This document shows, one piece after another, positions 2,643 to 14,349 of a stretch of DNA of 30,085 nt. The notes beneath the pieces were generated by a model. It saw only the letters and a program-made list of their open reading frames with translations, did not search any database and was not told the origin of the DNA. A program made the position numbers and the translations under genes. Each line of letters begins with the position of its first letter. The stretch's first letter is position 1. The stretch is from positions 1 to 30,085 of the IMG/VR virus record IMGVR_UViG_3300030419_001027, one strand, 5' to 3'. Source of the DNA: a virus.

Positions 2643-3082
2643 ATTTAACTAGATTTTGGCTATTATTAATAATATTATTACCTCTGAGAACCCTTGCTAC
2701 ACCTGTGGTTCCCCAGTTCCGTAGCGGATCATCTACTCAGTCCAGTACTTCGCAATCAGTAATTAATGAGACAATCACTTCGCACCAATACAATTCTGGA
2801 TTTTCTTACTCGGCATCAGGCCACAATATTGAATCAGCAGATGTTGATGGCTACATCAACCCTTCGACAGTTGCTGGTGAAACTCAAACTCTTAATGGTG
2901 TCCAGTTTAGTTGGACAAGCCCTTCACTTGAGGCAGTTCCAAGATGGAAAATAAAAGAGGCTGGGCAGAGCTTTTCTTTAGTCGAGTCACTGCAAGGTGC
3001 TGGCCTTTCCAATGTCACGACAATAAATCGGACTATAACAACAACTACTACAACCGAAACTCAAAGTATCTTTGGTCAGTAA
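2639..3082 (+). CDS. Exported protein, second of three
   Basis: A 147-residue frame with a TTG start that overlaps the previous TGA (TTGA). It has a signal peptide (MNLTRFWLLLIILLPLRTLA, cleavage after TLA), then a polar beta-rich mature part. That part contains SGFSYSASGHNIES, FSWTSPSLEAVPRW and a Thr-run end (TITTTTTTETQSIFGQ). The non-ATG start is favoured because it lies at the coupling overlap and directly precedes a good signal peptide. The phrases recall cyanophage proteins of unknown function. No enzyme motif is visible. It may work with its two exported neighbours. Confidence 0.6.
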   Translation: MNLTRFWLLLIILLPLRTLATPVVPQFRSGSSTQSSTSQSVINETITSHQYNSGFSYSASGHNIESADVDGYINPSTVAGETQTLNGVQFSWTSPSLEAVPRWKIKEAGQSFSLVESLQGAGLSNVTTINRTITTTTTTETQSIFGQ

Positions 3083-3654
3083 TTCTTGTAATCCTTTGTC
3101 CTGCAAGGGTTTTGGCTAATACAACAGTTGCTTCGCCGAATAGCTCGGCTCAAGGGGTAGTCAATAATAATGCAACAATGATAACTCCATCAAGCTTGCC
3201 CCAGAACCGCTACAGTCAAGGGATTGTTTGCACCTCGCCCAGTTTGACCATAACTCCTTATCTAACAGACGCATGGAGCTTTAACAGGCCAATAGAGACA
3301 GTCACTAGACAAAACATCTATGACGAGGACACAGGAGCAATAAAATATATCCAAGAAACACCAAGATTTGAAAAAGATAATTATAACTTAAATTATGGAA
3401 TATCTATGCAATTTAATATTCCTTTGGGCAATGGTGGGGAGCTATGTAAGAAAGCTGCGGCTGTAAATATTGAAGCTCAAGAGTTGTTAATCAAAAAAAC
3501 AAAATTAGAAATGGCTCTTTATAGGCTAGAGGTATGCGGCAAACAAGCTAAACTCGGAATAGTCCTGACAGGTGAACACGCAGTAACTTGTAAAGATGTA
3601 AAGCTTATACCTTTACCTAATCAAGTATTACCTCATACTCACAAAATAAAATAA
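2944..3654 (+). CDS. Exported cysteine-containing protein, third of three
   Basis: The conserved-looking part begins with the hydrophobic segment LWSVILVILCPARVLA, read here as a signal peptide, then NTTVASPNSSAQG. The body has IVCTSPSLTITPYLTDAW, NLNYGISMQFNIPLGNGG, ELCKKAA and VTCKDVKLIP, with about four Cys in the mature part that could form disulfides. From memory this matches a conserved unknown of T4-like cyanophages. The start is doubtful. The ATG at 2944 adds about 42 out-of-character residues and overlaps the upstream gene by 139 bases. An ATT at 3082, overlapping the previous TAA, would put the start just before the signal segment but is a rare codon. I report the ATG form and consider a start near 3082 biologically likely. 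Confidence 0.6.
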   Translation: MENKRGWAELFFSRVTARCWPFQCHDNKSDYNNNYYNRNSKYLWSVILVILCPARVLANTTVASPNSSAQGVVNNNATMITPSSLPQNRYSQGIVCTSPSLTITPYLTDAWSFNRPIETVTRQNIYDEDTGAIKYIQETPRFEKDNYNLNYGISMQFNIPLGNGGELCKKAAAVNIEAQELLIKKTKLEMALYRLEVCGKQAKLGIVLTGEHAVTCKDVKLIPLPNQVLPHTHKIK

Positions 3655-3718
3655 GTTTACATTGACTAATACAGAGCGGTGGCTGTTTTATCAGCACGTT
3701 GTAAAAGTTGTAAACTTA
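3652..3718. terminator. Inverted repeat between convergent operons, possible bidirectional terminator
   Basis: A perfect ten-base inverted repeat (TAAGTTTACA at 3652-3661, TGTAAACTTA at 3709-3718) encloses a small hairpin (GCTG, TTTTAT, CAGC at 3682-3695). AT-rich tracts flank both sides: U-rich after the right arm on the plus strand, and U-rich after the left arm on the minus strand. Its place between two gene ends suggests a terminator for both units. The stem is AT-rich and the loop is long, so confidence is limited. Confidence 0.45.
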
Positions 3719-3730
3719 AATTTATTATAT

Positions 3731-4381
3731 CTATTTTTCTTTTTTTGTAAAACGCTTAGTTATTTGCTTAATACCAGCCTTCGCAGCCCCTTGTATTAGG
3801 GGAACAAGAACAGCAGAGCCACCCGCAACCAGACCAATAACAGCAGTAGATACGAGAACTTCAGGAGTACCAATAAAACTTTCTCGGAATGGTACATCTT
3901 CCCAGATCGGGTCACAGGAGCCTCCTATGGTTTTTTCATATTTTACTAATCTCTGGATTTTTTTATCATTTCTGTAATCACCAGCCATAAATGGGGCATC
4001 TTTTGGTGGACATGGTTCTATTTTTATTTCTTCTTTTTCTTTTGGTGTTTTAGTTTCTGGCAAATCTGACTCTGGCATGGGTGGGGCATCATTTGTAATC
4101 GGCAAATCTTCAGTAATCACCAACTGATCTGGTCTGTAGTCCATAGGGTAAAAGCTAGGAAACAAAGATTCACCACAAGTCAAAAACACTCCGCTTGGGT
4201 CATCAAGCAAAAGCTGTGTATTACCAGTGTTTTTTATATCTCTATGCTGATAAGTACAACCTACAACATCTATTTCTAAATTTGTTATTACAGGTAATAC
4301 AGGATCTGGCTTGTATATCTCAGGAATATAGACCTCTGGAATATTAATTTGTTTGATACCGATTTCTGGTATCTCCATCAA
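3731..4381 (-). CDS. Cyanophage-type protein of unknown function, C-terminal membrane segment
   Basis: A 216-residue protein. The N-terminus is built of short IPE repeats (EIPEIG, INIPEVYIPEIYKPD). A central domain follows with VVGCTYQHRDIKNTGN, DDPSGVFLTCGE and PSFYPMDYRPDQL, then an acidic/Pro linker and CPPKDAPFMAGDYRND. A hydrophobic segment (about residues 176-196) precedes a basic tail (KQITKRFTKKEK). From memory very similar proteins occur in T4-like cyanophages, without known function. The tail-anchor topology suggests a membrane-attached protein. Its start overlaps the stop of the 76-residue membrane protein upstream. It is the last gene of the long leftward block. Confidence 0.65.
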   Translation of the reverse strand: MMEIPEIGIKQINIPEVYIPEIYKPDPVLPVITNLEIDVVGCTYQHRDIKNTGNTQLLLDDPSGVFLTCGESLFPSFYPMDYRPDQLVITEDLPITNDAPPMPESDLPETKTPKEKEEIKIEPCPPKDAPFMAGDYRNDKKIQRLVKYEKTIGGSCDPIWEDVPFRESFIGTPEVLVSTAVIGLVAGGSAVLVPLIQGAAKAGIKQITKRFTKKEK

Positions 4382-5115: not shown

Positions 5116-7680
5116 TTACCCTGCTTGGAGGGCTGTGACTTTTGCTGATAATTCTTTTATTGCATTTACAAGAATTGGAACAAGTCTTTCGTATTTCATA
5201 CCATAAGACATACCATCATCTGTAAGGTTACAAAGTAACATGTCATCATTTGATGCACCATATCCATGACTTTTCTCAATATCTAAAACTTCTTGAGCAA
5301 TAAATCCCAATTGTATTGCTGGTCTTTTCTTTGATCCGTCAGGTGTTCCATAAGGCTCTTTTTCTGTCCCATACCATGTCCTTCTGTCCCATCTATAAGT
5401 GACAGGTCTTAGTGCTTCAATCCAAGCTAACCCAATATCAAAATTTGCTATATCTGTTTTATCTCTTAGATCTGAAGTGTTAATTGTACTTGTAGCACAA
5501 AATAAATTGCTAATACTATTATTACCTAAACATACATTATTGTCTCCAGTTGTGATATTTCCTGATGGTGCATTTGCTCTACCAGCATCAACCCCTAATA
5601 ATAAATTATTGTCTCCTGTAGTAACACCATCACCCGCATTTTTTCCCACCGCAGTATTAGAAGCTCCACTTGTGGTTGCTGTTAAAGCACTACGACCAAC
5701 AGCAGTGTTGTCACTTGCACTACTCTGTACTAAAGCATTACAACCAACTGCTGTATTATTTGAAGCGGTGGAAATTGTAGCTAACGCCCCATAACCTAAA
5801 CCTGTATTTTCACTACCAGTCGTTGCTGTTTCAAGGGCTTGAGTTCCTAAAGCTGTTTGTTTTGTTCCAGTTGTATTTACTGGTAAGGCTGATTTACCCA
5901 CAGCAACATTATTTGCCCCAGTGGTGTTTGCCTGTAGTGCTGAAGCACCCACAGCAGTATTGTTTGATGCAGTAGTATTTGAATTTAATGCAGCAGAACC
6001 TAAAGCTGTATTTGTTGCACCTTCAGTATTTGCTGATAGAGAATTATATCCTACACTTGTATTATAACTTGCTGTCGTATTTGCATCCAAAGCAGCATGA
6101 CCCACAGCTACATTATAAGCTCCAGTCGTATTAACTGCCAATGCGTAATAACCAACAGCAGTGTTATTACTTGCCGTTGTATTATCTGTTAAGGCGTATG
6201 CACCCAAAGCAGTATTTTCGATTCCAGTTGAATTAGCATCTAAAGAATATGTGCCAATACTTGTGTTATTAGCTCCAGTTGTGTTTGCTCCTAAAGCTGC
6301 ATATCCTACCCCAGTATTATTATTAGCAGTGGTATTAGCATCTAAACACGCTGAACCTATTGCCACATTGCGTGTTCCAGTAGTGTTTGTAGTTAAGGCA
6401 TTATGTCCAACTCCTACATTATCACTAGCTGTGGTATTAGCATCTAACACAAAAGTACCTAATGCTACATTATTACCTCCAGTTGTGTTAGCAAATAAAG
6501 CATTATTACCAACACCAACATTGTTAGATGCTGTTGTGTTATTTTTTAAAGCATCTTTACCAACGGCTGAATTACTTGCCCCTGTAGTAGTAAGGTGTAA
6601 AGCTGCATGACCTACCGCAGTGTTATTATCTGCTGTTGTGGCAACTGTTAAACTTCCTTGTCCAAGAGCAGTATTAGAATCTCCTGTAGTATTAGCATCT
6701 AAGGCATAAGCACCGACAGAAGTGTTATTAGTTCCAGTTGTGTTTGCTTTTAAAGCATTATGTCCAACACCAGTGTTATTTGAAGCACTAGTGTTTTGTT
6801 GTAAAGCTTCTTGACCGATTCCAACATTATTACTGCCTGTAGTATTTAACTTTAATGCTTCAAGACCTACAGCAACACTAGAATTACCAGTTGTGTTTGT
6901 TGTTAAAGCATCTTTACCAACAGCAACAAGATTTGCTCCAGTTGTGTTTGCTCCAAGTGCATCAAGACCCACAGCAGTATTGTTAGAGGCTGTTGTGTTT
7001 GCGTCTAAGGCATTTTTCCCAACAGCAGTATTTGAGTCTCCTGTGGTATTTGCACCTAAAGCACCTCTACCAATGCCTGTATTATTATTTCCAGAACTAT
7101 TAGCATCTAACGCTGCAAAACCTACAGCTGTATTACCACCAGAAGAAACATTTGCCTCTAAAGCTAAATAACCAACAGCTGTATTTTCTGTGCCTGTCGT
7201 ATTACTATCAAGAGTATAAGCACCCAAAGCAGTATTATTTGAAGCTGTTGTGTTAGCAGCTAAAGCCTGTCTGCCAATTGCTGTGTTGTTAGCACCAGAA
7301 GTTAAAGCTGTTAAAGAATTTTTACCAATCGCTGTATTGCCTTCGCCAGACACAGAAGCATCTAAAGCACTCTCTCCAAGAACAGTATTATTAGCAACAG
7401 AGTTTGCACCTTTTCCTATATTTACTGAATTTATTGTTCCATCAACAGCAAAAGCTGGGCCACCAGCAAGAGTAAATAAATTTATAAACGCATTTCCAGA
7501 TGTATTATTGATCTGCATAATACCAGTTGAGGTATTAGCAAAAAATTGACTTACATAATTTGTAGATGGGGCAGAGGATCCAGAACTATTATTTGCTAAA
7601 GATTTAAAAGCATCTGTTAAATCTGCTCTAACGGCAGAACCAGTGCCGTTATCTATAATCATATCATTCTGAAAACTCAT
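5116..7680 (-). CDS. Tail fibre with 17-residue repeats and S74 chaperone domain
   Basis: An 854-residue receptor-binding fibre candidate. Residues 1-96 form a short, probably virion-attaching N-terminus. From residue 97 to 690 runs a YadA-head-like shaft of about 35 units of 17 residues with consensus NNTAVGxxALxANTTGx. Residues 736-854 are an intramolecular chaperone (Peptidase S74, endosialidase type), seen from SDLRDK at 736-741, then LGFIAQEV and YERLVPILVNAIKEL. In this family the C-terminal domain trimerises the fibre and then cuts itself off at the conserved Ser (here S736, with K741 in the motif), so a mature fibre of about 735 residues is expected. It follows the J-like tip gene, consistent with host recognition. 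The exact receptor is unknown. Confidence 0.88.
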   Translation of the reverse strand: MSFQNDMIIDNGTGSAVRADLTDAFKSLANNSSGSSAPSTNYVSQFFANTSTGIMQINNTSGNAFINLFTLAGGPAFAVDGTINSVNIGKGANSVANNTVLGESALDASVSGEGNTAIGKNSLTALTSGANNTAIGRQALAANTTASNNTALGAYTLDSNTTGTENTAVGYLALEANVSSGGNTAVGFAALDANSSGNNNTGIGRGALGANTTGDSNTAVGKNALDANTTASNNTAVGLDALGANTTGANLVAVGKDALTTNTTGNSSVAVGLEALKLNTTGSNNVGIGQEALQQNTSASNNTGVGHNALKANTTGTNNTSVGAYALDANTTGDSNTALGQGSLTVATTADNNTAVGHAALHLTTTGASNSAVGKDALKNNTTASNNVGVGNNALFANTTGGNNVALGTFVLDANTTASDNVGVGHNALTTNTTGTRNVAIGSACLDANTTANNNTGVGYAALGANTTGANNTSIGTYSLDANSTGIENTALGAYALTDNTTASNNTAVGYYALAVNTTGAYNVAVGHAALDANTTASYNTSVGYNSLSANTEGATNTALGSAALNSNTTASNNTAVGASALQANTTGANNVAVGKSALPVNTTGTKQTALGTQALETATTGSENTGLGYGALATISTASNNTAVGCNALVQSSASDNTAVGRSALTATTSGASNTAVGKNAGDGVTTGDNNLLLGVDAGRANAPSGNITTGDNNVCLGNNSISNLFCATSTINTSDLRDKTDIANFDIGLAWIEALRPVTYRWDRRTWYGTEKEPYGTPDGSKKRPAIQLGFIAQEVLDIEKSHGYGASNDDMLLCNLTDDGMSYGMKYERLVPILVNAIKELSAKVTALQAG
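5611..7392 (-). repeat. Tandem 51-bp (17-residue) repeats in the fibre gene
   Basis: About 35 units encode NN(T/V)(A/G)(V/I/L)Gxx(A/S)LxxNTTxx. The first 32 keep exactly 17 residues with no insertion or deletion; unit 33 is one residue short. DNA has diverged more than protein, so units are not recent identical copies. GAYxLDxNTTG-type units recur at intervals, hinting at older multi-unit duplications. Confidence 0.88.
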
Positions 7681-7722: not shown

Positions 7723-10700
7723 TTAACTACCACGCCCGAATCCAGTTGCAGCATATTTGAAATCTCTATTAACATGACTTGATCCATTCTTTACATCTAT
7801 ATCGAATCCTGTCGAACTAATATTTGATAAGGCAAAGAAATCACCTGATTGTGCATTTTCTATAGTAATTCCTACTGATGGCAAAACAGTATTATCTGGA
7901 ACCCCTGTACCAGTAGAACCTGTGAAGAAACTATTAGTGAATGTGACAGATTTTGTAGACGTGCCTGATGCAATCAAGCCATTTGTTGCCCCTGCATTAC
8001 CAATACTTGTTTCTGTTCTGCTTTCAATCTCTGCTGTATATCCTAACTGATCTATTTCAATAGATTGTGCTGGGTCATCAGAATCCATTTCACATCTAAA
8101 TTTAAAACCTCTTGCAACATAAGTTCCATTTACAAAAGGATTAAATTGAGAAAATTCAGCACTATAGGTGCAATTTCCACTTGTATTCAATGAAGTTGCA
8201 GAAGTAAGTGTAAATGTGTTTGCACTTGGTACACTTTGGATTTCATAGTCACCATCAACACCTGTTCCAGAAGTAAAATCAACAGTGACAAAACTACCAG
8301 CAGAATATCCATGATCTGTTTTTGTAATTGTAATTATTGTGCCAGCACCACCAGAACCATCATTAATCGTGTAACCTGTTGCTGTCACTGATAAATCAGG
8401 GTCTTGGTCAGTGGTAGCTACCAATAATTTAGCCCCTACATTGAACGCAGTAGCAGCATCAAAATCAGTCCATGTATCAATATTTGCAGTTCTTTTGTCA
8501 AACAAATCATTGGGGTAGAAACCCTGTGTAACCATGTGTCTGCGTAATCTTAAAGGTTGTTTTCCACCTAAATCCAAAGTATTTGCAAACTCATAAGATC
8601 CTCCTGTTATATCTACAGCACCCAAGAAATCAAAATCAGCCATAGCATCAAAATCTGGCACATCATCAAGAGTTATTAAAGAACCAAGCACAAGCCCATC
8701 AACATCATCACTTACAAAACAATCAACTTTTGTTCCACTAAAAGGAGGGCTGTCTGTATCTTCTCTATCTTCTAAAACAGTTAGCTTTGGAAAAGCATTT
8801 GGTACTGTTTGAAGCATTACAACAGAAGCTTCACCAGCACTCAAACGACCTCCATCATCTTTGAACTTTAAAATATAAGTTCCATTTACAATATTTGGAA
8901 CAATCGACTCACTGACGTTTCCAGAAAGTTCTGGAAGCACGTCAACTGAATTAGTAAATGTCGCTCCAGATGTAAGGTTAGAACTACGAATTACCACGTT
9001 TCCACCATGTATTACATCAACATCTGTTGATTTATCAAAACGTATTCTTACAAATTCATCTGATAAAGGTTCAATCCTTACATTCTGTACATCTGCTGGT
9101 AATGCTGTTTTTCCTTCAGCTTCTATAGTTGTTGTTGTTGTTGTTGAGCTAAGTTTGCCTAAAGTATTATACGATTTGATTTTAAAAGTATATGAACCAA
9201 GTCTTGATTCAAAAAGTTCAAAACTAGGTCTTGAGATCCTTAATCTTTCTGGGTTGTCGTTTTCATATTGAAATTCAAGTAGATATTCTTTTACACCTTG
9301 TACTGGTTCCCATGAAACAAATATTTTAGAAACGGCTCTATTGTCAAGAGCAACAATTTGTTCTACGGCTGTGGCGTTATTAGGTGAAGGTTTTTCATCT
9401 AATAAGGTAGTTATTGTTCTTGGATTTGCTGGAACTGTTGTATCTTCTACTTGAGAATATTTGTTTGTGTCGTGAATAATTGCTGAAATATTATATTCAC
9501 AATGATTCTTCTCTTCTATTCCCAAAACTCTATAAGTTTGAAATTGTACAGATGGACTTTCAATCGCATAAATACTATTTGATTGAGGTGTTGAAGAAAA
9601 AGCTGAAGAAACAGTTATTGTAGTTCCATCAATCGTTGATATAGTTCTAGATTCAGTAGACCCATCAGACAAAATGACACTTAAAGTAGATCCAGCTTCA
9701 TGTGATAAATCGTTGCCATCAATAGTTCTTGCATCAACAATTATTTGTGTGGTAGATACGCCAGTTTTTATCTTGCCACCTTTTCTCACCCCAGCCTTCA
9801 AAGTATCAGCAATGCCTATTATCATTGAGGGTCTTACAACAACACCAGCTTCAAGAGTTGCTTTAAATGAACAAAGTTCAGCCTCTTTTAAATTTGTGTA
9901 CAAAAACCATCTTGCAAGACGATTTGCCTGACCTCTTGAAGTGCAAGCAAAAGATTTTAAAGTTTTTCTTATTTTTCCAAATTTTGTTGTATAGCCTGAT
10001 AAAGCAGTTATTTCATCAGCACTTACATACTCAAAATTTAAAGTTTGTGTATCATTGTCAAAATATGAAACTTCAACTTCAGTAAATTTTGTTTTTTGTC
10101 CAACACTTGTATATGTAAAACCTTGATCGCTTACATTTGCATTTGTAAAAATATATTGAGCATCAGATGTATTTGTAGTTGTATTTGTAGGTCTGTCCTG
10201 AGATATGGTAAGGGAACCAACGCTATAAAAAGGCATTGCTCTCATTACCGAGCAAAGATCATTTATTAAAGTAAAAGCATCATTTTTTTGGTTTAGAATT
10301 ACATTGCAGCTGAATCTTGGCTCTGTTGTTTGTGTTATGGGGTCAGTAATTAGTTCGCTATTATATGCACTTGCAGAATAAAAACTAAAAACATCTAAGG
10401 TATCTGCATCAATAACACCATCTGTACCACCAAAACCTTTATCTGTTGTTAACAAGTCATATAAAATCCAAGCTGGATCAGAACACCATTCTTTATCTGT
10501 TTTAAATGTGCCGTTAAAAGTATAATCTGATGGATATATTACTCTTCCATTGTCAACATCAATAGAGGTTCCGTGCGGAATGGAGATCTTGGTACCCTTG
10601 ACCCTGTACATACGCTTTGGATAGCTTTGAAATTCTTGAGCATTAAACCTCAAAGCAACATAAGCAAATCCAGCGTAAGCTTGTGATTCTGTAATTATTG

Positions 10701-11424
10701 TTGTAATAGAAAGAAGATTAGTGGCATTTTGCAATCTTGAACTTGTGCTGTCATCAGTATTTCTTATAACAGTCACAGTTAATGGAAATGATAAATTATC
10801 TTGCTGTAAATCAATTTCATAGTCCTTTATATAAGGACTTGTAGCTTTTCCACTAATAGAATTTTCAACAACAGGATTATGAACTGTACCATCATTTTCT
10901 GTAATTCGTATTGATATTTTTACCTCTGTTCCAACGATATCTCCATCTGTTTTAAACTCTTGCAGTGCTGGTATTTGGATTGTTACTCTTAAAAGTTTTA
11001 TAAGTTCATTGCCATCTGAATCTTGAACACCTGTGATAGACCTTGCAACAGATGTGTCCTTAAGAATTGGAACTCCAACAGGAATTGTATTTTCTACACG
11101 ATCAGGGCCAAAAGAATCAACTGAACTTAATGGGGTTTGAGTATCAGTGCCACTTCTAAAAAAAACCTCTACATTATCAAAATTTAAATCACCATTTGCA
11201 TTAACTAAGGGTGTGCCATCTAAAAAAATATCTTTTCTGAAGTCAAGTGAATCTGTTGTATCTGGATCTGTATTTGTTGGTTTCCTGAAGCCCTCTATTT
11301 CACCATATCCAAGCAAATCCACAACTGTTGCAAAACTTTTACTTCTTAACCCTCCATCTATTAAATCTGGATCCTCTAATTTTGGTTCTCTTCCGAATAA
11401 TTGATCGTCAACTAATCTTGGCAT
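7723..11424 (-). CDS. Tail tip/host specificity protein, lambda gpJ-like
   Basis: A 1233-residue protein, a little longer than lambda J (1132). The N-terminus (GGLRSKSFATVVDLLGYGEIEGF, FLDGTPL) has the typical gpJ opening. A tail-hub region follows with QKNDAFTLINDLCSVMRAMPFYS and later SRGQANRLARWFLYT. Fibronectin type III-like segments lie around residues 700-780 (KIFVSWEPVQGVKEYLLEF). The C-terminal third is beta-rich and carries a 70-80-residue insert (about 1012-1091) shared with the M, L and I homologues, then FSQFNPFVNGTYVARGFKFR. It forms the tail hub and central tip. It sits between the I-like gene and the fibre gene, as expected. Confidence 0.88.
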   Translation of the reverse strand: MPRLVDDQLFGREPKLEDPDLIDGGLRSKSFATVVDLLGYGEIEGFRKPTNTDPDTTDSLDFRKDIFLDGTPLVNANGDLNFDNVEVFFRSGTDTQTPLSSVDSFGPDRVENTIPVGVPILKDTSVARSITGVQDSDGNELIKLLRVTIQIPALQEFKTDGDIVGTEVKISIRITENDGTVHNPVVENSISGKATSPYIKDYEIDLQQDNLSFPLTVTVIRNTDDSTSSRLQNATNLLSITTIITESQAYAGFAYVALRFNAQEFQSYPKRMYRVKGTKISIPHGTSIDVDNGRVIYPSDYTFNGTFKTDKEWCSDPAWILYDLLTTDKGFGGTDGVIDADTLDVFSFYSASAYNSELITDPITQTTEPRFSCNVILNQKNDAFTLINDLCSVMRAMPFYSVGSLTISQDRPTNTTTNTSDAQYIFTNANVSDQGFTYTSVGQKTKFTEVEVSYFDNDTQTLNFEYVSADEITALSGYTTKFGKIRKTLKSFACTSRGQANRLARWFLYTNLKEAELCSFKATLEAGVVVRPSMIIGIADTLKAGVRKGGKIKTGVSTTQIIVDARTIDGNDLSHEAGSTLSVILSDGSTESRTISTIDGTTITVSSAFSSTPQSNSIYAIESPSVQFQTYRVLGIEEKNHCEYNISAIIHDTNKYSQVEDTTVPANPRTITTLLDEKPSPNNATAVEQIVALDNRAVSKIFVSWEPVQGVKEYLLEFQYENDNPERLRISRPSFELFESRLGSYTFKIKSYNTLGKLSSTTTTTTIEAEGKTALPADVQNVRIEPLSDEFVRIRFDKSTDVDVIHGGNVVIRSSNLTSGATFTNSVDVLPELSGNVSESIVPNIVNGTYILKFKDDGGRLSAGEASVVMLQTVPNAFPKLTVLEDREDTDSPPFSGTKVDCFVSDDVDGLVLGSLITLDDVPDFDAMADFDFLGAVDITGGSYEFANTLDLGGKQPLRLRRHMVTQGFYPNDLFDKRTANIDTWTDFDAATAFNVGAKLLVATTDQDPDLSVTATGYTINDGSGGAGTIITITKTDHGYSAGSFVTVDFTSGTGVDGDYEIQSVPSANTFTLTSATSLNTSGNCTYSAEFSQFNPFVNGTYVARGFKFRCEMDSDDPAQSIEIDQLGYTAEIESRTETSIGNAGATNGLIASGTSTKSVTFTNSFFTGSTGTGVPDNTVLPSVGITIENAQSGDFFALSNISSTGFDIDVKNGSSHVNRDFKYAATGFGRGS
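8152..8391 (-). repeat. Shared beta module, copy in J homologue
   Basis: About residues 1012-1091: TIITITKTDHGYSAG, DFTSGTGVDGDYEIQSV, NTFTLT and TSGN. Flanking residues (TDQDPD before, FSQFNPF after) read as one continuous domain if the module is removed. Confidence 0.75.
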
Positions 11425-11430
11425 GGCTAA

Positions 11431-12264
11431 TTAAGGTAGATTCCTCTCTAAAACTGTAACAGCGTTTCCAGAATTTGAATATGTTTGAGAGTTCCACCCA
11501 CCTGTACTCACTTTAAAACTATTAGTAGCAACATCTTGAACACCAAATACTGCTGGGTCTATATTTGAACCAGAAAGAGGGCCACTTGTAAAATCAAGTC
11601 TGATATTTTCTCCGTTTACATATTTATGATTATTAATGTTTATTGTTATAAGATCCCCAGATTGTGTATATGTTCCCTCATTCGTCAATATTTTAACTAT
11701 TTGGGCATTATCAACACCAGAACTTATCAAAATTGATCCGCTGTAAACATATCCATACAAAATAGGAATCGGAATACCACTAGAACTAACGTTTTGAATA
11801 CCAGTAAAAGAATATGACCCTCTTATATTTGGGTCTGTATCACCAACAGAAGAGATATTTCCTGATGGTAAATCAGGTGTTAATAAATCACTAGCAAGAG
11901 TTAAGGCTGCTGTTGTTAATAATTCACTTAAACCACCTGTAACAAAAGAAGTTACAAGAGGCACAATATTGCTAGTAACAAAATTAAAAACATCATCAAA
12001 AAAATCTTTAATAAAATCTGAACCGACTGCGACTGGAATAATTTGAATATCTCCTTGTCCTGTTGAAGCTACAAAGTCTTGAGTTATTAAACGACCTCCC
12101 ATTTTTATTTGATATATTTGGTTATTCATATGCTTTTCAAGTCCAGCAAAATTTGCTTTCAAAAAACTATACGCTTGTTGTGGTGAATTTACAGCAGCTT
12201 GAAATGTTGATTTACCTAAAAATTTTCTAAGATTCCCATATACTTTGATTGTTCTAAGCTGCAT
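11431..12264 (-). CDS. Tail assembly protein, lambda gpI-like
   Basis: A 277-residue protein. The first 80 residues have the ubiquitin-like look of lambda gpI (MQLRTIKVYGNLRKFLG, FVASTGQGDIQIIPVAVGS). A hydrophobic Gly/Ala region (about 95-130) and a segment SYSFTGIQNVSSSGIPIPILYG typical of I-like proteins follow. The remaining 80 residues are an added beta module also seen in neighbouring M, L and J genes. In lambda, I assists tip assembly together with K, L and J. It overlaps the K-like gene by 11 bases and ends six bases before J. Confidence 0.8.
   Translation of the reverse strand: MQLRTIKVYGNLRKFLGKSTFQAAVNSPQQAYSFLKANFAGLEKHMNNQIYQIKMGGRLITQDFVASTGQGDIQIIPVAVGSDFIKDFFDDVFNFVTSNIVPLVTSFVTGGLSELLTTAALTLASDLLTPDLPSGNISSVGDTDPNIRGSYSFTGIQNVSSSGIPIPILYGYVYSGSILISSGVDNAQIVKILTNEGTYTQSGDLITININNHKYVNGENIRLDFTSGPLSGSNIDPAVFGVQDVATNSFKVSTGGWNSQTYSNSGNAVTVLERNLP
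11452..11679 (-). repeat. Shared beta module, copy in I homologue
   Basis: Residues about 196-271: GTYTQSGDLITININNHKYVNG, LDFTSGPLSG, VQDVATNSFKVST. It is the most divergent copy and forms the protein's C-terminus. Confidence 0.7.
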
Positions 12265-12961
12265 ATCTATAAACTCCTTGTAATGCTTTTTGATAGCTTA
12301 GACTAAGTGGTTGTCTACAGCTTAAAGCTTTAAAGTTGTGATTTAATATCATACTATCACCGATATAAACAGCAACATGACTAGCCTTACCCTTCGCACC
12401 TGTAAAAAGTAAAACATCGCCCTCTTTAAATTTATTATTATTTTCTTGTTTTACAAAGTTTGATTCTGTAAGTACTTTCTCAAAGTATGGATTATTAGCA
12501 AAATCCATTAATGTCTTTGGTCTAGGCCAGTATCTAATATTTATACTTTTGTTTTCTTTTAGCCAATCCGTAACAATAGACCAGCAATCATATTTACCCC
12601 AGATAAATTTTCTCCCAATAAGTGAAGGTGCTTCCCAGCCTGTAGGCTCAATACAAGTCCAGTGATCTTGATTAATACTATAAATATAATATGGAAAGCC
12701 AATATGTTCACAAGATGCTTTATCTGCATCAGAAGCTATTGCAGCCCCTACAGGGTGACTATGTATTACACCGATAATTTCTCCAGTATCTTCACATTCT
12801 ACCCAATCTTCAGGATCAATCATAAAAAACTCATGCTTCCCCTCTGCTAAATTTTTACAAGGCCAAAAAGTTTCCTTGCCATCTATTATTGCAAGCAAAC
12901 CGCAAGCCTCATTAGGTGCTTGTTTTTGTGCATATTTTTTAAAAGATTCTTTCCAAGTCAT
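12254..12961 (-). CDS. Tail tip peptidase, JAMM plus NlpC/P60 (lambda gpK-like)
   Basis: A 235-residue two-domain enzyme. Residues 1-110 are a JAB1/MPN zinc-peptidase-like domain with a complete JAMM motif: H67-S-H69, then S77 and D80, with E18 as the likely catalytic Glu (NEACGLLA). Residues 115-235 are an NlpC/P60 cysteine peptidase with C126 in GKYDCWS, H195 in ASHVAVYIGD and H208. In lambda-type phages this tail-tip protein is thought to cut peptidoglycan during DNA entry and to process tip proteins. All visible catalytic residues are present, so both domains are probably active. It lies between L- and I-like genes, exactly the lambda order. Confidence 0.92.
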   Translation of the reverse strand: MTWKESFKKYAQKQAPNEACGLLAIIDGKETFWPCKNLAEGKHEFFMIDPEDWVECEDTGEIIGVIHSHPVGAAIASDADKASCEHIGFPYYIYSINQDHWTCIEPTGWEAPSLIGRKFIWGKYDCWSIVTDWLKENKSINIRYWPRPKTLMDFANNPYFEKVLTESNFVKQENNNKFKEGDVLLFTGAKGKASHVAVYIGDSMILNHNFKALSCRQPLSLSYQKALQGVYRYAA

Positions 12962-12963
12962 AT

Positions 12964-13782
12964 CTAAAAGTTAACAAAAGTTCCTACACCTTTAAAGTCA
13001 TCTCTCGTAACTAATTTTTTGGGTGCACCAACACCAGCCAAATCAAAACTGCTTACCATTTCAAACTCTACAATATTTCTATTTTCTGTTGTTTTCTTAT
13101 CTATGAAATACACTTCTCTTGGTAATTCTGCTGTTGGGTCTACTGAACCAACCTTAAAAGGGTTCACATTAGATGGAAAATTCTCCTCATCTAAAAATCT
13201 TGCGAGTGTTCTTCTCCTTGTTACTTTAGCCCTTTGCAAATCAATAAAAGGTGTCGTTTGATTTACTCTCAAAATAATTGTTGTTATTGTTCCTAACAAA
13301 TTTGAAAATGTAAGTGTAGGTCTTGGTAATAAACCTTTACCAGAATATTTAAAGCCCTCTGCCCTACATGGCATCCTTGTATATGTATTGGATTGCCAAA
13401 CAATGTCGCCACTATCTTTCATATTGTTGCCAGCATGAAAAAGAAAAACTGTTGCATCACTTAATGTTGTATTCACATTGAACGACACATTGCCACTTGT
13501 AGACTGTGAAGTAGTGCCTGTGACTGTAAAAGAGTCTGTAGCAACTGTTTGTATTGTATAAATCCCATCAATACCATTTCCAGAAGTAAAATCAAGACTT
13601 AAAATAAGACCAGTAGAAAATCCATGAGCAGTTAATGAAATAGTGATTGTTGTTCCTGACTGACTATATGTAGCTGTTTTTGCTGATTTTGTGTAATGAA
13701 GATCAGGTATCAGTTCAACAGAAAACAACTCAATTATAGATTTGTTTGTAAGTTGTTGTAACTCTGGTACAGGATTAGCCAT
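12964..13782 (-). CDS. Minor tail protein, lambda gpL-like, without Fe-S domain
   Basis: A 272-residue protein beginning LQQLTNKSIIELFSVELIP, with FLFHAGNN, IVWQSNTYTRMPCRAEGF and LPRPTLTFSN, the signature of phage tail L proteins. A beta module (residues about 36-103) is inserted between the first strand and the FHAG segment. The protein ends at APKKLVTRDDFKGVG, about where lambda L goes on into its four-cysteine 4Fe-4S domain; only one Cys is present here. It probably sits in the tail tip above J. It begins one base before the M-like stop. Confidence 0.85.
   Translation of the reverse strand: MANPVPELQQLTNKSIIELFSVELIPDLHYTKSAKTATYSQSGTTITISLTAHGFSTGLILSLDFTSGNGIDGIYTIQTVATDSFTVTGTTSQSTSGNVSFNVNTTLSDATVFLFHAGNNMKDSGDIVWQSNTYTRMPCRAEGFKYSGKGLLPRPTLTFSNLLGTITTIILRVNQTTPFIDLQRAKVTRRRTLARFLDEENFPSNVNPFKVGSVDPTAELPREVYFIDKKTTENRNIVEFEMVSSFDLAGVGAPKKLVTRDDFKGVGTFVNF
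13474..13677 (-). repeat. Shared beta module, copy in L homologue
   Basis: Residues about 36-103: ATYSQSGTTITISLTAHGFSTG, DFTSGNGIDGIYTIQTVATDSFTVT and STSGNVSF. The DNA run TCCAGAAGTAAAATCAA (plus-strand sense) is identical in the J copy. Confidence 0.75.
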
Positions 13783-14349
13783 TTATGGTTCAAATACCTC
13801 TCTAAAAGTACAGTTGATTATTGCTCTATTGTTATAAGGTATAATTTTTGTCCAAGAATCGCAAACATATTTGCCAGCACCAGAAAGAGTGATCGAAACA
13901 TTACCACTATTTGTTGCATCATCAGCAGCCGTTACTGTAAATACATCATCAGTTGTCACAGATGCAACGGAAAAAGTACCATCAGTTGCAGAACCAGAAG
14001 TATAATCAATAGTTAAAATATCACCAATAGCAACTCCATGCTGTGTGATTGTTATTGTCACAGTTGTTGTACTTTGACTATAAGTTCCTGTTTTTGTGAA
14101 CCCTTCTGCTGGTGGGGTAAACGAAAAGCTTGCCTGATCTGCAACCCTACTTCTTAAAAAGCCTTCAATAACATCTGATTCAGTCTCAGACACGTTGAAA
14201 GTAAGATCATATACTTTTGGGTCTTGGGACAAAGGAAGGCCATACAAAGCTCTAAACTCATAGCCATCACCAAGTTGAGTTGTCCTTATTTTTGGTGAAC
14301 TTGTTTTTCTCATCCCATAAGTGGGAGTGATTGATGGAAATGTAGCCAT
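13783..14349 (-). CDS. Minor tail protein, lambda gpM-like
   Basis: A 188-residue protein: MATFPSITPTYGMRKTSSPKI, QLGDGYEFRALYG, then VYDLTFNVS, FLRSR and FSFTPP. The end CDSWTKIIPYNNRAIINCTFREVFEP is typical of phage minor tail protein M. Between FTPPAEG (residue 83) and GKYVCDSW (about 159) lies an inserted beta module that also occurs in L, I and J. M forms part of the tail tip/initiator. It starts at the tape-measure stop and is followed at once by L. Confidence 0.88.
   Translation of the reverse strand: MATFPSITPTYGMRKTSSPKIRTTQLGDGYEFRALYGLPLSQDPKVYDLTFNVSETESDVIEGFLRSRVADQASFSFTPPAEGFTKTGTYSQSTTTVTITITQHGVAIGDILTIDYTSGSATDGTFSVASVTTDDVFTVTAADDATNSGNVSITLSGAGKYVCDSWTKIIPYNNRAIINCTFREVFEP
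13882..14097 (-). repeat. Shared beta module, copy in M homologue
   Basis: Residues about 85-156: GTYSQSTTTVTITITQHGVAIGD, DYTSGSATDGTFSVASV, DVFTVT and NSGNVSIT. It is placed in a loop before the conserved CDSW segment. Confidence 0.75.

Follow-up and report, generated by a model that had tools for sequence, protein, structure and literature searches.

How the same small beta-rich module came to lie in four different but neighbouring tail-tip genes of one virus, and what it may do there, is the question raised by a 30,085-base IMG/VR virus record, referred to at its full length as the window. On its minus strand the window has a block of structural genes of the lambda-type siphovirus kind. 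Its named relatives are the Prochlorococcus siphophages MED4-117, MED4-184 and P-HS2, with which it shares 84% identity at the DNA level across 2.8 kb in the head region and 56% at the protein level in M. The virus is marine and of the kind infecting ocean cyanobacteria, and its host is likely Prochlorococcus or a close relative.

The tail-tip gene block

Genes M, L, K, I and J were assigned via Pfam, PHROGs, NCBIfam and the solved lambda tail-tip chains, with the following results:

13783..14349, minus strand: gene M, minor tail protein / distal tail ring (PF05939, 2.8e-13; lambda gpM 8iyk, Z 13.5)
12964..13782, minus strand: gene L, hub protein HDI (PF05100, 1.9e-28; TIGR01600, 9e-32; C-terminal 4Fe-4S motif absent)
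12254..12961, minus strand: gene K, JAB + NlpC/P60 (Pfam)
11431..12264, minus strand: gene I, tail tip assembly/plug protein (phrog_32, 5.6e-22; lambda gpI, 0.01; F2-pyocin homologue, 7e-8)
7723..11424, minus strand: gene J, central tail fibre / tip attachment protein (phrog_31, 3e-156; lambda J, 9e-59)

Homologues of gpM, gpL, gpI and gpJ stand in the lambda-type order, which identifies the tail tip as lambda-type, and the match of J to lambda J in sequence reaches only about residue 760-780. The window also encodes an S74-chaperone fibre (5116-7680) of 854 aa with many NTTGxNNTAVG head-type repeats.

Some features of L, I and K in the compared loci (denoted by L and a three-digit number) are recorded here in their own right. 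The 4Fe-4S cluster has been described as universal among gpL homologues (PMC10721106). The L protein of the window stops short of the Cys-rich 4Fe-4S domain of lambda gpL. The CxxYRGxxC-type motif of that domain is absent in 132 of 132 module-bearing L proteins and in 145 of 159 module-less ones, being present in 14 distant ones; a loss would be of interest in an ocean clade, given the scarcity of iron there. The I homologues of L001, L002, L065, L087 and L129 have ~331 aa, and their I part begins near residue 130-140, which suggests a K-like piece fused with I, and the K of L051 and L053 has only 132 aa.

One domain in four tail-tip proteins

The module is ~67 residues long, with a motif rich in T, S and G, and its four copies lie as follows:

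13882..14097, minus strand: module copy in M, the gpM-like distal tail ring protein (aa 85-156)
13474..13677, minus strand: module copy in L, the gpL-like hub protein (aa 36-103, N-terminal part of HDI)
11452..11679, minus strand: module copy in I, the gpI-like plug protein (aa 196-271, C-terminal extension)
8152..8391, minus strand: module copy in J, the central fibre (aa 1012-1091, C-terminal region after the FNIII part)

The sequence-only reading had placed the four segments at these same coordinates, correctly, and all four translate in frame there. Its proposal of one homologous domain in four different tail genes is borne out by the agreement of pairwise blastp and leave-one-out profiles. 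In blastp the strongest pairs were M/L (49%, 8e-21), L/J (50%, 4e-18) and M/J (1e-14), followed by the weaker pairs L/I (3e-11), M/I (3e-8) and I/J (2e-4). Profiles built from three copies recovered the fourth at 2e-17 for M, 6e-23 for L, 4e-12 for I and 3.5e-15 for J, the next best window ORF having an E of 0.14 or worse and the reversed ORFs at best 0.019. Among the window ORFs no module was found by blastp or profile in K, in the tape measure H or in the S74 fibre. K is the sole module-free gene between M and J, and 0 of 126 K proteins carry the module.

DNA identity had also been noticed between the L and J copies, and it is real, going beyond what protein similarity and codon usage account for: 22 of the 31 codons for identical residues are themselves identical (expected 13.5 +- 2.6), and the L/J nucleotide identity was reached in 0 of 500 randomisations. 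A similar codon excess was found for M/J, and none in the same codon test for the I copy. The excess of identical codons in L/J and M/J is a trace of common DNA ancestry.

Host proteins without the module

The proposed comparison with related genomes lacking the insert found module-less versions of all four genes. In module-less relatives, TPPGE of M runs directly into the SxxKFV strand, the first strand of L leads directly into the hub domain (the copy being absent in L111, L121, L131, L140 and MED4-117), and VATTDxDPS of J continues to FNxF (absent in L030, L033 and L112). In I the module is added after the conserved protein end, as a C-terminal extension, and is absent in 85 of 118 relatives, the close ones L006 and L008 among them. 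Like virion decorations of the CBM type, the module is consequently a self-contained domain placed within, or at the end of, proteins that also occur without it. That it breaks a familiar host domain in M, L and J was accurate as to the interruption in all three, since the module-less relatives are continuous there; the word familiar fits M and L but not J, whose interrupted C-terminal part matches no solved lambda chain in sequence.

Another kind of insert was observed in L003 (Marine virus AG-345-A17), where the L protein at 3018-4010 lacks the module and carries ~110 other residues at a different site. This insert ends YYCSTHGNSMGN and is perhaps cupredoxin-like, with no Pfam match beyond Phage_tail_L.

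Fold and family of the module

An AlphaFold2 model of M from 56 sequences had a mean pLDDT of 87.6, and of >90 over the module. The structure prediction that had been suggested as a check gave, for M, a body and a separate barrel that each match a different solved fold. All 109 residues of the body align with lambda gpM (8iyk; Z 13.5, 2.5 A), and the module (82-156) aligns with the beta-barrel of the phi92 endosialidase 4hiz (Z 10.2, rmsd 1.8 A, 75 residues) and with residues 424-506 of the K1F endosialidase (Z 9.1). The earlier remark on FCCH-like domains was right for the fold, as the M model matches the E1 FCCH of Uba6/Uba1 with Z 8.2-9.3 (rmsd 2.0-2.4 A over 72-75 residues, identity 10-21%). 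Endosialidase barrel and FCCH are the best structural matches of the M module among those listed; Ig is absent from these, which does not amount to its exclusion. The model of the J C-terminal region had a mean pLDDT of 79.7 with strands at the module position, and the structure matches listed for it are to FNIII at residues 1-105. The endosialidase beta-barrel fold is thus seen in predicted structure for the M copy only, and the J, L and I copies are predicted from sequence homology to share it.

In sequence searches M matches PF12195 at 1.4e-5 and the phi92 endosialidase 4hiz at 4e-7 (phmmer). The window copies score 25.4 (M), 21.8 (J) and 13.2 bits (L), with none for I, and so remain below the End_beta_barrel gathering cutoff of 35 bits; judged by score they appear as relatives of PF12195 and not as formal members. 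NCBIfam has no model for the module, and nothing relevant was found in the literature on FCCH domains in phage tails.

The likeness to the endosialidase barrel (PF12195; K1F, phi92) comprises the same fold, significant sequence similarity and a place within a virion protein, whereas the window modules differ from the endosialidase spikes in having no propeller, Asp for two Ser, and four copies in tail-tip proteins. With E1 FCCH the likeness is one of fold only: the hosts are tail proteins and the surroundings of a ubiquitin-like activating enzyme are missing in the window, so that the relation may be very remote or one of shape alone. The module is a transferable beta-barrel of endosialidase type (FCCH-like).

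Nested occupancy of the tail tip

Occupancy was scored in 307 related or comparison loci, and the pattern counts refer to loci where all four genes could be judged. Written in the order M, L, I, J, the patterns were 0000 in 29 loci, 0001 in 8, 1001 in 48, 1101 in 44 and 1111 in 13, and the exceptions to this nested series were 1110 in 4, 0101 in 2 and 1100 in 1. On the core tree, a quick tree made from core segments without the module that counts changes without direction, there was one change in M, one in L, five in I and five in J; the 0101 lineage, with its shortened K, lies outside this tree and adds one loss in M. The direction of the series was taken from the nesting and from module-less outgroups. 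The most likely history is therefore a build-up by one gene after another, in which the window represents a late, fully occupied state. J would have come first, followed by M, L and finally I, and in I and J the module was gained and lost repeatedly.

Within a genome the cross-gene identity of the M, L and J copies (~0.46-0.47) equals that between genomes, and same-gene copies from different genomes are 0.57-0.76 identical, the copies clustering by gene. The arrival of the four copies was therefore long ago and not simultaneous, and each has since evolved together with its gene; the same equality rejects recent gene conversion among them. The median dN/dS is 0.08-0.125 across the four copies, denoting purifying selection, and since the copies track their host genes under such selection the spread in the window is old. 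With 67 columns the module tree is not long enough to tell in which gene the ancestral copy lay, and only the I copies form one well-supported group in it. Prophage or host-genome relatives of M were not found among GTDB genome contigs at the sensitivity used.

Gain and loss of copies

In J alone the module occupies about seven sites: 20/24 (tandem), 122, 210, 288, 312, 933 and 1018. The two tandem modules near the J start, at about 20-24, were observed in L221, L223 and L225. At site 312, L169 has an in-frame addition of exactly one module where L155, L157 and L179 are empty. This copy is 87% identical in amino acids to M-type modules, and its DNA is about 82% identical to the M modules of L199 and L210 and about 70% to the M copy of L169 itself. 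Target-site repeats were not visible in the alignment of L169 with L155, L157 and L179, and no conserved flanking element was seen at module insertions. Site 312 of L169 is direct evidence of a bare domain copied between an M gene and a J gene, in a comparatively recent event; a new copy can thus be made when just the DNA that codes for the domain is duplicated into a different tail gene.

Two close pairs of loci bear on loss. L053 and L051 differ in the whole M allele, and L030 and L031 in the 3' part of J, both pairs being otherwise 94-98% identical in DNA. Module-less alleles were therefore swapped in by recombination. In these two closest pairs the gene or its end is replaced, and precise excision was not seen as a loss route.

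Spread by recombination within one tail had been suggested to explain the four copies. Spread within and between tail genes agrees with the nested occupancy and the M-type copy in a J gene, but recent recombination inside this one tail does not hold, as same-gene copies are closer to each other than same-genome copies.

The module in other phages

The module is not confined to tail-tip proteins: the same profile detects it in unrelated Prochlorococcus phages, in proteins of the capsid, nozzle, fibre and baseplate. The major capsid protein of the T7-like P-SSP2 and P-SSP3 carries it, with a PF12195 score for P-SSP2 of 36.4 bits, over the cutoff, and that of P-SSP7 lacks it. Among 80 related ocean major capsid proteins, 13 (cyanopodovirus contigs L309-L321) have the module, at one site, about residue 290. 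In L317 and L330 it was also observed in a downstream ORF. Further copies are in the nozzle of the podovirus NATL1A-7, in the fibre and baseplate wedge of the T4-like P-HM1 and MED4-213, and in a pectate-lyase-like spike of L103. All annotated phage records matched by the L-type module (17/17) were Prochlorococcus phages or cyanophages; the M-type consensus also matches E. coli K1 endosialidases and a few others, and the structure search returned many further phage proteins with a similar domain. The domain itself is widespread among phage proteins.

Putative function at the tail tip

We predict with moderate confidence that the modules most likely serve as auxiliary surface adhesion domains. 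The barrels would bind a repeating cell-surface ligand, probably a glycan, at low affinity and would raise avidity before J engages the receptor, much as the CBM modules of lactococcal siphophages do. Among the relatives of the module whose function is known, the barrel of K1F is the closest; it forms one of three sites for polysialic acid and is a hotspot of host discrimination (PMC12632334), and by analogy with it carbohydrate binding by the module is plausible. In the alignment, S460 and S468 of the K1F pocket fall on a conserved Asp pair in the module (in DFTSG and DG), which is present in 4/4 window copies and at 71% and 77% for the two positions in 77 non-redundant modules, so that the residues of a K1F-type sialic acid pocket are not those of the module. 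As the Asp pair replaces the serines that accommodate the sialic acid carboxylates in K1F, sialic acid is not to be assumed as ligand and is not favoured. A ligand site at the place of the K1F pocket with another specificity is plausible from the alignment, and the aligned Asp pocket could instead be structural.

The lambda tip contains 6 gpM, 3 gpL, 3 gpI and 3 gpJ (PMC11101478, PMC10721106), and by homology one virion would display about 15 barrels around its tip. Outward exposure of the modules would be expected from the homologous complexes. Lambda gpI lies largely inside the cone, with a part threading through gaps in gpJ (PMC10721106; PMC11101478); the C-terminal module of I could reach outside, its exposure being the least certain among the copies. 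Module and body have diverged equally in L and J, and in M and I the module is only moderately ahead; a hypervariable receptor-binding domain is rejected on this ground.

Other explanations of the four copies were weighed against adhesion. The modules might be structural spacers or clamps that have no ligand outside the virion but touch each other or the neighbours in their own trimer or hexamer, stiffening the tip or forming its rim; for this speak the concentration of copies in adjacent, interacting ring and hub proteins, the strong purifying selection, and the same fold in E1 enzymes, where FCCH does not bind glycans. We nevertheless consider this rather unlikely, because any of M, L, I and J is naturally without the module in some lineages, meaning that no fixed partner is needed, and because the module also occupies unrelated sites in a capsid protein and a podovirus nozzle as well as about seven positions in J. 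Less probable again is a neutral or selfish passenger domain, spread by recombination and tolerated in loops to no benefit. The low dN/dS in all four copies, the conservation of positions at the aligned K1F pocket and the fact that the M and L copies, each acquired once, have long been kept all count against such a passenger, even with the repeated gains and losses in I and J, the many insertion sites and the lack of any conserved flanking element seen. That the four segments are intrinsic to unrelated beta-rich folds and alike by convergent Thr/Ser/Gly-rich composition is hardly conceivable: tail proteins are indeed beta-rich and the motif has this composition, but the leave-one-out profiles recovered every copy with E values no higher than 4e-12, the next ORF being at 0.14, the body and module of M match different solved folds, and the empty sites in module-less relatives refute the segments being intrinsic to their host folds. 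Auxiliary adhesion is thus the reading carried forward.

Relation to known virion decorations

Ig-like domains are transferable beta domains common in virion proteins. BACON domains are presented in one published account as transferable beta domains of phage virion proteins too (PMC6949934). Both belong to fold families different from that of the window module, and BACON copies are in tandem in one protein. The lactococcal 936 siphophages carry CBM decorations in evolved Dit, TpeX/MTP and NPS, two of which bind host cells (PMC6669499). Like these, the window modules are small, lie on several structural proteins and are present or absent between close relatives; in the 936 phages, however, different modules decorate different proteins, rarely together, on neck, tube and Dit, whereas in the window homologous copies of a single module have accumulated in four tip genes that lie close together. 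The Dit protein pb9 of T5 has an OB-fold extension (PMC7291167) and is likewise a gpM-like ring protein with an added domain, Foldseek giving a nearly full-length alignment of the window M with T5-type pb9, but the added fold is a different one and no copies are described in neighbouring genes. The module system is modular virion decoration by a different domain.

Implications for Prochlorococcus phages

To our knowledge the receptors of Prochlorococcus phages are poorly known. If the barrels bind a cell-surface glycan, one domain of 67 residues would be a direct probe for that glycan, and natural relatives with and without modules would allow its effect on adsorption to be tested. Nested occupancy, together with the M-type copy in J and the allele swaps, gives an unusually clear gene-by-gene record of the gain and loss of an accessory domain. 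A more speculative reading, possible though we think it on the whole doubtful, is that the barrel is a shared currency circulating among Prochlorococcus siphoviruses, T4-like and T7-like phages, and that it has been fitted into their tail-tip, fibre, baseplate, nozzle and capsid proteins because it recognises one abundant ligand on the surface of that host. Should that be true, virions would be coated with the same binding unit, and the nested series J, M, L, I would represent a stepwise build-up of avidity.
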